Shown piece after piece: positions 2,439 to 8,521 of a stretch of DNA of 41,259 bases. Made by a program: the position numbers and the translations under genes. The DNA is from Chloroflexota bacterium (GTDB lineage: Bacteria > Chloroflexota > Limnocylindria > QHBO01): contig JAICQM010000003.1 in NCBI GenBank assembly GCA_025937875.1, positions 1 through 41,259 on the forward strand, given 5' to 3'. How positions within the stretch are numbered: position 1 is the first letter of the stretch; every line of letters begins with the position of its first letter. Under the pieces are notes generated by a model. It ran no database searches. It saw only the letters and a list, made by a program, of their open reading frames with translations, and was not told where the DNA came from.

Positions 2439-2852
2439 TCAGGCCACCTCGGCCTCGTCGAGGATCACGCGCAGGAGGTCGAGCGGAGTTACGACGCCGA
2501 TCGGCGTGCCGGCGTCATCGGTGACGACGAGGCGATGAATGTGGTCGACGATCATGCGCCGTGCCGCGTCCTCGACCGAGGTCATGGCGCCGATCGCGAT
2601 CGCCGGGCGCGACATGATGTGCCGCACGCGCAGGCGCGGCCAGTTGGCGCTGATGAGCTCGCTGGCGTGCGCGGTCAGCAGATCGGTCTGGCTGACGACG
2701 CCGATGAGCTCGCCGTGGTCCACGACCGGCAGGCCGCTGATGCGGTACGTGCGCAGGAGCGCCTCGGCCTCGGCGACGGGCGCGTCGGGCGCGACCGTCA
2801 CCGGATCGATGGACATGAGGTTGCCGACGCGGAGCGAGACGGTCGTGGACAT
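2439..2852 (-). CDS. CBS-domain pair protein
   Basis: Two CBS repeats ([37 protein letters not shown]... and [40 protein letters not shown]); start chosen at [10 protein letters not shown]. Confidence 0.88.
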
Positions 2853-3082
2853 CGGTATGCCTCCGTGCGTGGGTCTGGATTGGAGACGACTATCCGTCCG
2901 CGAGCGTGAGGCGACCACGGCCGGAGGTCCCGACCTGGGGGGCGCTTCGGCACGCGTGCCGTTCGCCACCCGCAGGTGGGTCCGGTCGGCACTACCGACC
3001 GCGGCGTCCGCCACCCATGCTGCAGTTGAACGATCCGTACCCGCATCTAGATCCGTACCGCAGCTGGGCCAGGAGGTCCGAA

Positions 3083-3898: not shown

Positions 3899-4387
3899 TC
3901 AGGCGCTGGCGGCCTCCGCCCCGGCGCGACCGATGCGCACACGCCACACCTCCGGCCCCTGCTCGAGGTAGTCCCAGGTGAACTCGCCGGGATGCTCGGC
4001 GGCCAGCTGGTAGTACAACGGCTTGGGGTCGTGGTCGTTGACGAGCTCGAAGGCCGTTCCCGGCACGAGGGCATCGAACGTCTCGAAGATCTCGGCGTGG
4101 CGCTGCGCCGGCGGAAGGCTGCGCACGTCGAGCTGGGTGGCATTGGTCACGGGGAGGGCTCCTTTCGAATGGCTCCGCTCGAGGCGGACGAGATAGTGCA
4201 TCACGCCGTTGATGCGCTGAGCGACGCGTGGCTCGTCGAGGCGAATTGCCACGTAGATGTCGGCCGCGATCTGGTTGGCGAGCCGGGGCCGGCCAGCGTT
4301 GCCCAGCTCGCGCAGCGTCCGGACGAGGCCGGTGGTGAGGTGCTCCACCGGGTCGGCGAGCTCGTCCAGTGACGTGCCGGCACTCAC
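3899..4387 (-). CDS. DUF2249 domain protein with an N-terminal helical extension
   Basis: C-terminal LDVRSLPPAQRHAEIFETFDALVPGTAFELVNDHDPKPLYYQLAAEHPGEFTWDYLEQGPEVWRVRIGR matches the DUF2249 pattern; GTG start overlaps hemerythrin stop (GTGA). Alternative internal GTG at 4150 with strong SD. Confidence 0.82.
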   Translation of the reverse strand: MSAGTSLDELADPVEHLTTGLVRTLRELGNAGRPRLANQIAADIYVAIRLDEPRVAQRINGVMHYLVRLERSHSKGALPVTNATQLDVRSLPPAQRHAEIFETFDALVPGTAFELVNDHDPKPLYYQLAAEHPGEFTWDYLEQGPEVWRVRIGRAGAEAASA

Positions 4388-4839
4388 CCGATGAGCTCGT
4401 GCATGCCGGCCAGCAGCTCAGCCAGCACGACGTCCGGATTGGCCACCAGGGCCGGGATCAACAGGTCGTTCTCCTTGGCGAGGTGCGATTCGAACAGCGC
4501 GCCGATGGCTACCGCACCTGCGGCAAGCCCCAGCGGATCCTGCTCGGCGCGGAAGGCGGCGACCCGGGCGACGAGCCCCTCGTGCTCGGCACTCATGGCA
4601 CGCACCAGCAGCGCCGTCGCGCCGACACTGCCGGCCGGGTAGAGCGTCGCCTCCTCGGCCATTGCGTGGGGCAGGAGGTCGTCCTCCAGGTACGTCAGCA
4701 CGCCACGCGCGGCCTCGCGATGCGGCGCGCCGTCGCGCACGGTGGCCACGAGATTCGCGATCCGCCGGTTCAGCTCGGCCCGCATCTCGGTGTGGTGGGC
4801 GGCGATGGCGGCCGCGGTCTCGGCATCGGTGGGTGGCAT
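4384..4839 (-). CDS. Hemerythrin (HHE) domain protein
   Basis: Spaced H/E pattern: HHTEMRAELNRR, HAMAEEATLYP, SAEHEGL, FESHLAKENDLLIPAL. Confidence 0.85.
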   Translation of the reverse strand: MPPTDAETAAAIAAHHTEMRAELNRRIANLVATVRDGAPHREAARGVLTYLEDDLLPHAMAEEATLYPAGSVGATALLVRAMSAEHEGLVARVAAFRAEQDPLGLAAGAVAIGALFESHLAKENDLLIPALVANPDVVLAELLAGMHELIG

Positions 4840-4871
4840 CGAGGTACTCCGACTTCGGGGCGGACGGGTGC

Positions 4872-4905
4872 TTGATATTTACGGCCATTCCCGTGCAAAA
4901 TGCAA
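4872..4905. promoter_or_regulatory. Overlapping divergent sigma70-like promoters for the hemerythrin (-) and HTH regulator (+) genes
   Basis: +: TTGATA (4872-4877) -18- CAAAAT (4896-4901). -: TTGCAT (4905-4900) -18- TAAATA (4881-4876). AT-rich island in GC-rich DNA. Confidence 0.5.
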
Positions 4906-4907
4906 GC

Positions 4908-5570
4908 ATGACCTCCCACGAGCAGCACCGGGCACTCGCCGGACGCAGCCGTGCGCGACTCCTCGACGTGCTTCGATCCGCCGGCCGGGGGCTGGCCATC
5001 GACGAGCTGTCGGCCGCCGCCGGCCTGCATCCCAACAGCGCCCGCGAGCAGCTCGGTGTCCTGGTCCAGGCCGGACTCGTGGAGCGCGCCAGCGACCGGC
5101 CCACCGGACGCGGACGGCCCCGCCTGCGGTACATGGCCGCGCCGGAGCCCGGCGCTGGTGACGCGGGCGCCTACCGCGACCTGGCGCGTACCCTGGCCGA
5201 GGAGCTCGCCGCAGGCGCCGATCCGGTCGGCGCGGCCGCGCATGCCGGCGAACGCTGGGGCGCGCGCGTGGCCGCGCGGCTCCCCGCCGCGACGTCCGAG
5301 TCGGACGCGGTGCAGCGTCTGGTCGAGGTTCTCGACAACGCCGGCTTCGACCCCGAGCCACCCACGGTTCCCGGCGCGCCGATTGGCCTGCGCCGCTGCC
5401 CGTTCGGGACGCTGGCCCGGGGCCGTGAGCCGGTGATCTGTGGCGTGCACCTGGGACTCATGCGCGGTGTCCTGCGCACCATCCATGCGCCCATCCAGGC
5501 CGCTCGCCTGGACCCCTGGGTGACCCCCGCACGCTGCCTGGCCCATCTCGGTGCGCCGACCGATGCCTGA
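4908..5570 (+). CDS. HTH transcriptional regulator (ArsR/SufR-like winged helix) with C-terminal cysteines
   Basis: LLDVLRSAGRGLAIDELSAAAGLHPNSAREQLGVLVQAGLVER HTH; C-terminal RRCPFGTLARGREPVICGVHLGLMRGVL...ARCLAHL. Confidence 0.85.
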   Translation: MTSHEQHRALAGRSRARLLDVLRSAGRGLAIDELSAAAGLHPNSAREQLGVLVQAGLVERASDRPTGRGRPRLRYMAAPEPGAGDAGAYRDLARTLAEELAAGADPVGAAAHAGERWGARVAARLPAATSESDAVQRLVEVLDNAGFDPEPPTVPGAPIGLRRCPFGTLARGREPVICGVHLGLMRGVLRTIHAPIQAARLDPWVTPARCLAHLGAPTDA

Positions 5571-5907
5571 CGACCGCGTCACGCTGCCCACGCTGCTCGG
5601 CCCGCACGTCGATGAGGCATCCGTGATGCGCAGCCTGCAGTCGGTCATCGACCCCGAGCTGGGGGTCAACATCGTCGACCTGGGGCTGGTCTACGGTGCG
5701 GATGTGGTCGACGGCGTGGCACGCATCCTCCTCACGACGACGACCCCCGCCTGTCCGTTGGGGCCGTACCTGACCGACCAGATCCGCTGGGCCCTACTGG
5801 CACACGACGGGGTGCTCGATGTCGACGTGGAGGTGACCTACGAGCCCCTCTGGTCGCCGGAGCTGATGAACGACTCGGCCAGGCGACAGCTCGGCTGGCC
5901 CGTCTGA
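5563..5907 (+). CDS. MIP18/DUF59-family metal-sulfur cluster assembly factor
   Basis: VMRSLQSVIDPELGVNIVDLGLVYG and TTTTPACPLGPYLTDQI motifs; ATG overlaps the upstream stop. Confidence 0.9.
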   Translation: MPDDRVTLPTLLGPHVDEASVMRSLQSVIDPELGVNIVDLGLVYGADVVDGVARILLTTTTPACPLGPYLTDQIRWALLAHDGVLDVDVEVTYEPLWSPELMNDSARRQLGWPV

Positions 5908-7010
5908 TGGCAGCGTCACGCCTCCCGCTGCTGATGGCGGCCGGGCTGGCGCTGCTCGCCGGCCTCGGCGGCGCCCTCGTGCTGCTGGGCATCGGGATGC
6001 CAGCCGCCACCCGGCGGCTGGGCAGCGATCATGGCGTGCTCATGACGCTGGGCTTCCTGGGCACCCTCATCGCCCTCGAACGCGCGGTGGCGCTCGGTCG
6101 CCGCTGGGCGTACCTTGCGCCGCTGCTGAGCGGGCTGGCCGCCGTCTGGCTCGTGGCAGGCCCGCCGGGCCGAGGTGCCGCCGCGCTCCTCGGCGCCGGG
6201 GCGATTACCTTCGTCGCCATGTACGTCGCATTCCTCCGTGTCGATGGTGCCCTGCATGTGCGCGTGCAGGCGGCGGGCGCACTCGCGTGGCTCGCCGCCG
6301 CGCTGATGCTGCTCGCCGGTGGGGCAACGGCGGCGATCGTGCCCTGGCTGGCCGCGTTCCTGGTCCTCACCATCGCCGGTGAGCGGCTCGAGCTGTCGCG
6401 CCTCGTCCCCCGGAGCCCGGCCGCGCAGACCCAATTCGTGGTCGCGGTCGCGATCTTCGTCGCCGGCGTGGTCCTCACCGTTGCGCTTCCCGACGCCGGG
6501 CGCCGCATCGGCGGCATCGGCCTGCTGGCGATGGCCGCGTGGCTCGCCCGCCACGACGCCGCGCGGCGGACCGTCAGGCTGGGAGGCGTGACCCGCTTCG
6601 TGGCACTCTCGCTGCTGGCCGGCTATGCCTGGCTGGCCGTGGGTGGCGCCGCGTGGCTGGCGGTCGGTGCGACGGCCGGCGGTGCCGGCTATGACACGAT
6701 GCTGCACGCCATATTCCTGGGATTCGTGATGTCGATGGTGTTCGGACACGCGCCGGTCATCCTGCCCGCGGTCCTCCGGTTACCGCTCCCCTTCCACCCG
6801 CGGTTCTACGTGCACCTCGGCCTGCTCCACGCGGGGCTCATGCTGCGGATCGTGGGCGGCGACCTGCTGGGCCTCGAGCCGGCCCGCGTGACCGGTGGCG
6901 TCCTGAACGTGGCTGCCCTGCTGCTGTTCGTGGCGTCCTCCGCCCTCGCCGTGCTGTGGCCGACGACCCGGTTGGGCCTTCCGATGCCGGCTCCGGTGAG
7001 CGACCGATGA
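5907..7010 (+). CDS. NnrS-like polytopic membrane protein
   Basis: About 12 hydrophobic segments; HGVLMTLGFLGTLIALERAVAL, MLHAIFLGFVMSMVFGHAPVILPAV, LLHAGLMLRIVGG resemble the NnrS family. Confidence 0.68.
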   Translation: MAASRLPLLMAAGLALLAGLGGALVLLGIGMPAATRRLGSDHGVLMTLGFLGTLIALERAVALGRRWAYLAPLLSGLAAVWLVAGPPGRGAAALLGAGAITFVAMYVAFLRVDGALHVRVQAAGALAWLAAALMLLAGGATAAIVPWLAAFLVLTIAGERLELSRLVPRSPAAQTQFVVAVAIFVAGVVLTVALPDAGRRIGGIGLLAMAAWLARHDAARRTVRLGGVTRFVALSLLAGYAWLAVGGAAWLAVGATAGGAGYDTMLHAIFLGFVMSMVFGHAPVILPAVLRLPLPFHPRFYVHLGLLHAGLMLRIVGGDLLGLEPARVTGGVLNVAALLLFVASSALAVLWPTTRLGLPMPAPVSDR

Positions 7011-7780
7011 TCGTCATGTACGGCTCGACCACCTGCGAGGACACGGCCATCACCCGCAGCCGGCTCGACGCGCTCGGGGTGCCGTACCAGGAGCGCCTGA
7101 TCGACCGCGATCCCGCTGCGCGCGAGGCGCTCGACACGCTGGCCGGCGGGCGGATCGTCACGCCGACCCTCGACCCTGGTGATGGCGGATCACTCCTCGC
7201 CGAGCCGTCGCTCGAGGAGCTGGGCCGGCGGCTCGTGGCCGGCGGTCACCACGTGGCGCCACCGACCGCGGATGCCGTCGGTGGCGACCTGGCCGCCCGT
7301 CCGATCCCGATCGCCAGCCTGCCCACCGCGGACGGCGAGCCATGGTCGCTGCGCAGGTGGCGTGGCCGGCGCGCCACCGCCCTCTTCCTCGCCCACGACG
7401 CCGCGTGTCTCCCCTGCTGGGGTTACGCCAAGCAGCTGGCCCGGCAGGCTGATGCCCTGGCCGAGGTGGAGGCGGCGCCGGTGGTGGTGGTCGCCGGCGA
7501 GCCGGCGGATGCCGCGACGTGGCGCCACGAGGTGGGCGAGTCGCTGACGCTGCTGGCGGACGCCGACGGCGCCTGGAAGGCGACGCTCGCCGCGTACCTC
7601 GGGTTCGACCCGGCGCGCCCGACGGTGCTCCTCCTCGACCGCTACGGCGCGCCGAGCGGCGTGTCGAGCGCGGAGGAGGCCGGCGGCCTGGTCGACCCCA
7701 GCGAGGCGACGCGCTGGCTGCGCCACCTGGCGCTCGAGTGCCCGGAGTGCACCGAGATCCTGCCATGGGGCGAACCATGA
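7007..7780 (+). CDS. Glutaredoxin-like / peroxiredoxin-like two-domain thiol-redox protein
   Basis: N-terminal MIVMYGSTTCEDTAITRSRLDALGVPYQERLIDRD...GGRIVTPTL (Grx-like); C-terminal redoxin-like domain with CLPCW; ATGA overlap with upstream gene. Confidence 0.7.
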   Translation: MIVMYGSTTCEDTAITRSRLDALGVPYQERLIDRDPAAREALDTLAGGRIVTPTLDPGDGGSLLAEPSLEELGRRLVAGGHHVAPPTADAVGGDLAARPIPIASLPTADGEPWSLRRWRGRRATALFLAHDAACLPCWGYAKQLARQADALAEVEAAPVVVVAGEPADAATWRHEVGESLTLLADADGAWKATLAAYLGFDPARPTVLLLDRYGAPSGVSSAEEAGGLVDPSEATRWLRHLALECPECTEILPWGEP

Positions 7781-8151
7781 CCACCGACCCGGTGCGCCTG
7801 CAGCGCGCGTACGACGAACCGACGCCCGACGACGGATACCGCGTGCTCGTCGACCGTGTCTGGCCGCGCGGCCGGACGCGGGAGCACCTCCGCCTCGACG
7901 CGTGGCATCGCGAGCTTGGCCCCAGCACCGCGCTGCGGCGCTGGTTCGGCCACGACCCGGCACGGTGGGACGAGTTCAGGCGCCGTTACCACGCGGAACT
8001 GGCCACGCCCGCGGCGGCAGCCCAGATCGACGAGCTGGCGGAACGGGCGCGCCACGGGCGCCTCACGCTGGTCTACGGGGCGCGGGACACCGAGCACAAC
8101 CAGGCGCGCGTCATCGCCGAGGAGCTCGAACGGCGACTCATGCTCGACTGA
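7777..8151 (+). CDS. DUF488 family protein
   Basis: RVLVDRVWPRGRTREHLRLDAWHRELGPSTALRRWFGHDPARWDEFRRRY...LTLVYGARDTEHNQA is typical of DUF488; ATGA overlap. Confidence 0.92.
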   Translation: MTTDPVRLQRAYDEPTPDDGYRVLVDRVWPRGRTREHLRLDAWHRELGPSTALRRWFGHDPARWDEFRRRYHAELATPAAAAQIDELAERARHGRLTLVYGARDTEHNQARVIAEELERRLMLD

Positions 8152-8161
8152 CCGGCGCGGG

Positions 8162-8521
8162 TCAGCGGCCGATGCGACCCAGGTGCGTGTCGGCGAACCC
8201 GGTCGCCAGCTTCAGCCCGTAGCCCAGCGCGCGATCCATCCCGACGTGGGCGACCAGCACCGCCCCGGCGAACGCGAGCGGCGCGATGCCGGCACCCCAC
8301 CCGACGCCCAGCAACGCCAGCGCCAGCACGAGGTTGTGGACCGCGTTGTAGGCGATGGCCCCGAGCCGCGGCCCGGCGAGGTAGCCGGCCATCGAGACGT
8401 CGGGTGCAAGGAGCAGTGGCAGGAGCCAGATCCAGTCCCCGCCCATCCACAGGTAGAGCGCCGCCCCGCCGAGCGCCACCGCCAGCCATTCCGCGCGCAG
8501 GAGCAGCGGGATGCCGGACAT
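8162..8521 (-). CDS. DUF4260-family membrane protein
   Basis: LLLAPDVSMAGYLAGPRLGAIAYNAVHNLVLALAL and HVGMDRALGYGLKLATGFADTHLGRIGR motifs. Confidence 0.88.
   Translation of the reverse strand: MSGIPLLLRAEWLAVALGGAALYLWMGGDWIWLLPLLLAPDVSMAGYLAGPRLGAIAYNAVHNLVLALALLGVGWGAGIAPLAFAGAVLVAHVGMDRALGYGLKLATGFADTHLGRIGR

Follow-up and report, generated by a model that had tools for sequence, protein, structure and literature searches.

The analysed window, a stretch of 41,259 nucleotides, is the entire 41 kb contig C17 of a Chloroflexota genome and carries, at positions 3899–8151, an island of seven genes arranged in two divergent arms. The island is probably a response module that is derepressed by nitric oxide (NO), accompanies copper nitrite reduction and handles NO and iron-sulfur (Fe-S) damage. 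A nitrogen-oxide and Fe-S role had been proposed for it in an earlier note on this DNA, and this reading is supported by the neighbourhood of, and fusion to, genes of copper nitrite reductase (NirK), by a regulator of the ArnR type (PMC12343034), by co-occurrence statistics and by a conserved putative operator.

The minus strand carries the genes of a DUF2249 protein (3899–4387, 162 aa; PF10006, 111 bits against a cut-off of 29.5) and of a hemerythrin-like di-iron protein (4384–4839; PF01814, 56 bits), which share the bases GTGA. The plus strand begins with the ArnR-type regulator (4908–5570), composed of a winged helix-turn-helix (HTH; HTH_20, 30 bits), a linker helix and a TRAPP/Bet3-like sensory domain, and continues with a DUF59/MIP18-type Fe-S assembly protein (5563–5907; PF01883, FeS_assembly_P, 62 bits), a membrane protein (5907–7010) with 12 transmembrane (TM) helices and the fold of heme-copper oxidase (HCO) subunit I according to structure prediction and Foldseek, a fusion of glutaredoxin and AhpC/TSA redoxin (Grx-redoxin, 7007–7780; PF00462, 34 bits, and PF00578, 31 bits), and a DUF488 protein that fits the "inactive N3i" subclade best (7777–8151; PF22752, 131 bits). 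The HTH and DUF59 genes overlap by 8 bases and the DUF59 and membrane genes by 1 base; the two remaining junctions, membrane/Grx-redoxin and Grx-redoxin/DUF488, are ATGA overlaps. The open reading frame check reproduced all seven genes with the coordinates, divergent arrangement and stop/start overlaps that the earlier note had given. Pfam confirmed its labels for six of the seven proteins, including DUF2249, and failed to confirm the label of NnrS-like for 5907–7010; the label "3-Cys HTH" held as to the HTH and the conserved Cys residues and could be sharpened to an ArnR-type regulator.

Conservation of the island and its linkage to NirK

The source genome (2.27 Mb, 94.7% complete, 283 contigs) has Chloroflexota metagenome-assembled genomes as its near relatives. 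Neighbourhoods of the membrane protein family were counted in 75 loci after removal of known duplicate records, with neighbours taken within 5 kb. A NirK-type gene was found at this distance in 37 of the 75 loci, and in 28 loci the membrane gene is followed by a second membrane module (module 2) and NirK in this order. In at least 10 loci (L062, L066, L078, L083, L084, L089, L091, L095, L096, and L099) NirK and the member of the membrane family are joined in an in-frame fusion. In addition, narGH or respiratory nitrate reductase genes were found nearby in L066, L090, L094, L098, L100, L102, L103, and L106. Among the genomes of the class that possess the membrane family, 22 of 24 contain a NirK-like match with E < 1e-30 (p 1.3e-8).

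The other genes of the island recur in the same neighbourhoods. At least one of hemerythrin, DUF2249, 3-Cys HTH and DUF59 is present in 58 of the 75 loci; in 21 loci other than that of the window the gene immediately upstream of the membrane gene is DUF59, and in 22 loci DUF2249 and hemerythrin stand as a pair in divergent orientation. The complete arrangement DUF2249-hemerythrin//HTH-DUF59-membrane gene, together with the N-terminal extension of DUF2249, was found in L028 and L030, and partial versions of it in many more loci. The membrane family itself is patchy: of the 177 genomes from the class, 24 have it, and four of these 24, the window genome included, belong to the window's own family. 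It co-occurs with DUF2249 in 21 of the 24 genomes (p 1.3e-19 over the 177), and at the genus level in 12 of 13 (p 2.9e-8). A scan of GTDB gave 57 loci in Chloroflexota, Actinobacteria (Actinomadura, Nonomuraea, Streptosporangium and relatives), Acidobacteria and a few other groups. The conservation of gene neighbourhood on which the proposal depended was thus observed: the set of genes recurs in three phyla, beyond chance. One locus, L052 (JAICUY010000005.1), is titled Steroidobacteraceae, and its gene content is that of contig C49 of genome G174 from the window's family; the title is probably wrong.

As for NirK in the source genome, contig C133 carries a module 2 gene and a gene for a three-domain NirK-like protein, located beside a GAF histidine kinase. 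The solved structures that match this protein best are copper nitrite reductases, some of them of the cupredoxin-fused type, and the ligands of type 1 and type 2 copper and the catalytic Asp (H233, D236, H238, H272, C273, H281, M286, and H374) are invariant in 42 sequences. G174 has an orthologue with 64% identity on the same contig as the island and next to it (L028). The NO source, which the earlier note had placed either outside the cell or elsewhere in the genome, is therefore probably encoded elsewhere in the same genome, by the C133 gene with its complete set of copper ligands.

Module 2 (L110:6853–8109 and 34 relatives, next to or fused to NirK) has no match in Pfam or NCBIfam; its residues H58 and H189 are invariant and H75 is nearly so. 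In actinobacterial NirK, its counterpart is the "transmembrane domain of unknown function". When the profiles of module 2 and the membrane family were compared, the resulting probability was low (9%).

No COX1-type NO reductase was found on the window contig. The two COX1 matches in the genome were considered as NO reductases and rejected, one being an aa3-type oxidase and the other a divergent CcoN-like protein. In the latter (L111:6435–8588, contig C279) inspection of the sequence by eye did not show the usual HCO His motifs of TM6 and TM7, and a small CxxCH cytochrome c follows.

The ArnR-type regulator and the divergent promoter

The three conserved Cys residues of the regulator are spaced as C164-x13-C178-x31-C210. 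In its homologues, the C-x13-C motif is present in 30 of 30 sequences, the third Cys follows after 30–33 residues, and a His three residues past the second Cys is found in most; in the window protein this conserved residue is H181, a possible fourth cluster ligand judging by its position. The predicted model consists of a winged helix and a linker helix, followed by a C-terminal domain matching Bet3/TRAPP subunits, and the sensory domain matches bet3-trs33 (E 2.9e-4), Bet3-TPC6B and TPC6. ArnR of Corynebacterium glutamicum, whose Cys179, Cys193 and Cys223 form C-x13-C-x29-C, binds a [4Fe-4S] cluster, and NO abolishes its DNA binding; the sensory domain of its relative Rv2621c resembles TRAPPC3 (PMC12343034). 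Both features that define the ArnR type, a winged HTH with a sensory domain bearing three conserved Cys with C-x13-C spacing, and a TRAPPC3-like fold of this domain, are present in the window regulator. From this comparison we infer a regulator of the ArnR type that would carry a [4Fe-4S] cluster on its three Cys. Control of narKGHJI and hmp, as exerted by ArnR, was not found: the genome contains no Molybdopterin-family gene, and the single operator is that at the island.

A second ArnR-like 3-Cys HTH protein (C-x13-C-x30-C) is encoded in the same genome at L110:1670–2341 on contig C133, beside a luciferase-like monooxygenase, and a similar paralogue occurs at L030:4987–5628.

The Cys spacing of the regulator is not that of SufR: SufR of Mycobacterium tuberculosis (C203, C216, and C244) has C-x12-C-x27-C (PMC6034842). 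The same comparison bears on another explanation, according to which the island would be a general Fe-S/iron or oxidative-stress regulon of SufR-like type, linked to NirK by the need of anaerobic respiration for Fe-S clusters and metals and not by NO. The DUF59 and redoxin genes agree with such a regulon, and a three-Cys winged HTH resembles SufR as well as ArnR (PMC6034842). However, C-x13-C and x30–x33 are kept throughout the regulator family, and the association with NirK and DUF2249 is strong, so that this explanation appears improbable.

The promoter of the plus-strand operon (4872–4901) consists of a -35 element TTGATA (4872–4877), an 18-nt spacer and a -10 element CAAAAT (4896–4901). 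The promoter consensus scan found it once, against 0.0 in shuffles, and it is conserved in relatives; because the ATG stands at 4908, the mRNA is expected to be leaderless or nearly so. A putative operator, TTTACGG-N6-CCGTGCAAAATG (4878–4902, no strand assigned), has its arms ACGG (4881–4884) and CCGT (4891–4894) inside the promoter spacer, and its position between -35 and -10 fits repression. Across phyla the arms covary, changing from ACGG-N6-CCGT to ACAA-N6-TTGT between lineages. With up to 3 mismatches allowed, this is the only site in the source genome, and the scan found no second operator that would indicate a wider regulon. The HTH promoters of Streptosporangiales (L073, L086, and L087) have another geometry, in which inverted arms similar to CACGGTCT flank a TATTTATAC element, and keep the ACGG/CCGT half-sites. 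These findings would extend ArnR-type regulation, which has been described almost exclusively from Actinobacteria, to Chloroflexota, with a concrete putative operator.

In the proposed mechanism, the regulator with its [4Fe-4S] cluster on three Cys would occupy the operator in the shared divergent promoter and repress both arms; NO, produced by NirK encoded elsewhere in the genome or by neighbours, would nitrosylate the cluster and lift the repression. The single regulon of seven genes that had been proposed is firm for five of them only, since Grx-redoxin and DUF488 are loosely conserved; these two, judging by their distribution, are loosely attached accessories. Grx-redoxin, with CxxT in its glutaredoxin-like part and CxxC in its AhpC/TSA redoxin part, is present in few other loci, and DUF488 has the membrane family nearby in 4 loci, among them L029 of genome G169 from the window's family, where it directly follows the membrane gene.

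Several results weigh against the NO-response module. The window palindrome alone does not exceed shuffles in a mismatch-scored test. Support for the operator comes from conservation across loci, the cross-locus test being the only significant one: 15 of 29 divergent regions contain a palindrome of the form ACNN-N6-N'N'GT (shuffles: mean 0.95, maximum 4). The regions compared come from relatives, are not independent, and had been viewed before the pattern was defined. The third Cys stands at x29 in ArnR and at x31 in the window regulator. The C133 NirK-like protein reaches 196 bits with TIGR02376, under the equivalog cut-off of 296. Finally, the source genome gave no match to Pfam Molybdopterin (no NarG detected), and neither a truncated globin nor a recognisable NO reductase was found in it, so that on this evidence the bacterium is not a complete denitrifier. 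If the module acts as proposed, it offers a possible way for bacteria that have no recognised NO reductase to cope with NO, a point relevant to the question of which lineages emit or buffer nitrogen oxides.

The membrane protein and the hemerythrin-DUF2249 arm

The protein encoded at 5907–7010 (P0005) has no match in Pfam or NCBIfam. Its identification as NnrS failed at the level of sequence: PF05940 does not match P0005, and only one of 53 homologues touches the Pfam NnrS model, with E 0.17. A sequence search of solved structures with the membrane family found nothing. The AlphaFold model built from the 53-homologue alignment (predicted local distance difference test, pLDDT, 93.9; predicted template modelling score, pTM, 0.92) contains 12 long helices, and Foldseek comparison with the PDB placed HCOs at the top, namely, cbb3 CcoN (TM-score to query 0.64–0.68), ba3 and aa3, followed by quinol NO reductases (0.56–0.64). 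These matches had a probability of 1.00 and an E-value of 3.5e-3 at best, the others being weaker. According to this model, the protein has the 12-TM fold of HCO subunit I.

In the membrane family, H42 (TM2), H267 and H281 (both TM10) are invariant, and H308 (TM11) is at least 90% conserved. The His ligands of CuB/FeB on TM6 and TM7, which a catalytic HCO or NO reductase would have, were not found among the invariant residues, and TM6 has E159/R160 instead. In HCOs, His residues on TM2 and TM10 hold the low-spin heme; H42 and H267, placed from helix boundaries at a similar depth, therefore form a plausible heme b site. NnrS has also been placed in the HCO superfamily. At the membrane, the protein would handle either NO, like NnrS, or electrons, which it may pass towards NirK. 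The fusion to NirK favours a role in the NirK path, and the operon shared with DUF59 and the sensor favours a protective one.

In its strict form, the electron path would make the protein a bis-His (TM2/TM10) heme b protein that carries electrons from quinol to cupredoxin-NirK, being fused to NirK in Streptosporangiales and encoded separately in Chloroflexota, with the rest of the island maturing and protecting it. The in-frame fusions, the 28 loci with the membrane gene-module 2-NirK order, the HCO fold and the His residues placed like low-spin heme ligands, with no invariant TM6/TM7 His for CuB, all agree with this. Yet in the window and in most Chloroflexota the gene belongs to the HTH-DUF59 operon and is not with NirK, module 2 already stands between the membrane gene and NirK and could be the donor, and two genomes of the class have the membrane gene without a strong NirK-like match; the strict form is thus a possible but rather doubtful one. 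It is likewise only a tentative suggestion that the members of this HCO-fold family, which lack CuB ligands, are membrane heme proteins through which NirK is connected to the quinol pool, and that they are controlled by an ArnR-type NO sensor and an operator conserved in both Chloroflexota and Actinobacteria. If true, the NirK-fused forms would be self-contained quinol:nitrite reductases. The probable NO-response module and the less likely electron-donor role are not exclusive.

As for the minus-strand arm, the HHE domain of the hemerythrin-like protein scores above the model cut-off and has the full set of di-iron ligands (H15/H16, H58, E62, H86, H119, and E123), which are 89–100% conserved in 38 sequences. 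With the RIC/YtfE/DnrN equivalog models, the protein remains below cut-off (22.9 against 204.7 bits and 22.2 against 300 bits), and by these scores it is a YtfE/DnrN-like core without the full RIC architecture. The DUF2249 domain, at residues 86–154 of the only DUF2249 protein of the source genome, is preceded by an N-terminal helical extension of ~80 aa; in the alignment of 50 sequences, two His residues of the domain are invariant, and R16, D38, P41 and W68 are almost invariant. YtfE-type proteins are tied to Fe-S repair, and nitrite reductase activity has also been reported for them (PMC9052748). In Haloferax, the expression of DUF2249 genes rises with denitrification (PMC11218638), and in Thermus DUF2249 proteins act in nitrate control (PMC6282519). 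In the module, the hemerythrin and its DUF2249 partner would perform NO/nitrite chemistry or, as for YtfE/DnrN, Fe-S repair.

In an alternative explanation, the role of this arm is not Fe-S repair but the production of NO from nitrite or the sensing of nitrate/nitrite. It draws on the nitrite reductase activity reported for YtfE (PMC9052748), on the proposal of DrpA as a nitrate sensor (PMC6282519), and on the hemerythrin-DUF2249 pairs that directly adjoin NirK without the membrane gene in L116, L117, and L118. DrpA, however, was found to be periplasmic and acts on nar, which was not detected in the source genome, and the alternative seems unlikely.

The DUF59 protein, which would help to reload Fe-S proteins, possibly the sensor too, has PF01883 above cut-off and an invariant Cys64 in the motif TTTPACP (23 sequences); it falls short of the SUF_assoc equivalog (80 against 143).

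Other genes lie close to the island. A DUF4260 membrane protein (8162–8521, minus strand) is encoded immediately downstream of, and convergent with, the plus-strand operon, and was not found near the membrane family elsewhere. A CBS-pair protein (2439–2858, minus strand) is encoded near the island; similar CBS proteins accompany the membrane family in L046, L078, L091, and L107, and such neighbours are reminiscent of hypoxia regulons. In Actinobacteria and Acidobacteria, a radical SAM-like protein is a recurrent neighbour of the membrane family, with 14 loci in which it is encoded within 5 kb; the loci noted with this neighbour are L057, L065, L075, L079, L090, L094–L097, L100–L102, and L105–L107. 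The PDB sequence matches of window proteins P0001 and P0007 were chance or designed-repeat alignments and were set aside.

Comparison with known systems

The window regulator shares with ArnR the winged HTH, the dimer linker helix, the TRAPPC3-like sensory fold (reported for Rv2621c), the C-x13-C motif and a nearby conserved His, and both are associated with nitrogen-oxide genes. They differ in that ArnR adjoins narKGHJI and hmp, whereas the window regulator adjoins the hemerythrin, DUF59 and HCO-fold genes in a member of Chloroflexota, and in that the [4Fe-4S] cluster is reported for ArnR and presumed here.

Actinobacterial NirK with N-terminal membrane (~400 aa) and cupredoxin domains is already known (PMC4770552). 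These domains correspond to the module 2-cupredoxin-NirK part of the loci described above, whereas the 12-TM HCO-fold module that precedes this part or is fused to it, and is a separate gene in the window, is additional. In the part of the literature covered, no account was found of the extra HCO-fold module, nor of control by ArnR-type regulators in Chloroflexota. DUF2249 and the HCO-fold membrane family, both uncharacterised, gain a testable context, and the latter is tied to NirK by fusion.

With DrpA and the haloarchaeal DUF2249 denitrification proteins (PMC6282519, PMC11218638) the window protein has in common the Pfam domain with conserved His and the tie to nitrogen-oxide respiration; it differs in its N-terminal helical extension and in being operonic with hemerythrin instead of nar. 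NnrS (PF05940) is likewise a membrane protein, reported to contain heme and copper and linked to NO stress, whereas 5907–7010 has no significant sequence match to it and is related by fold only.

In proteobacteria, dnrN (ytfE) and nnrS form NO-responsive regulons of the NsrR type (PMC1274295). In these regulons, as in the proposed module, a hemerythrin di-iron protein and a heme-copper-type membrane protein are placed under one NO-responsive regulator; in the window, the regulator is of the ArnR type and not Rrf2, the membrane protein stands outside Pfam NnrS, and DUF2249 and DUF59 are added.

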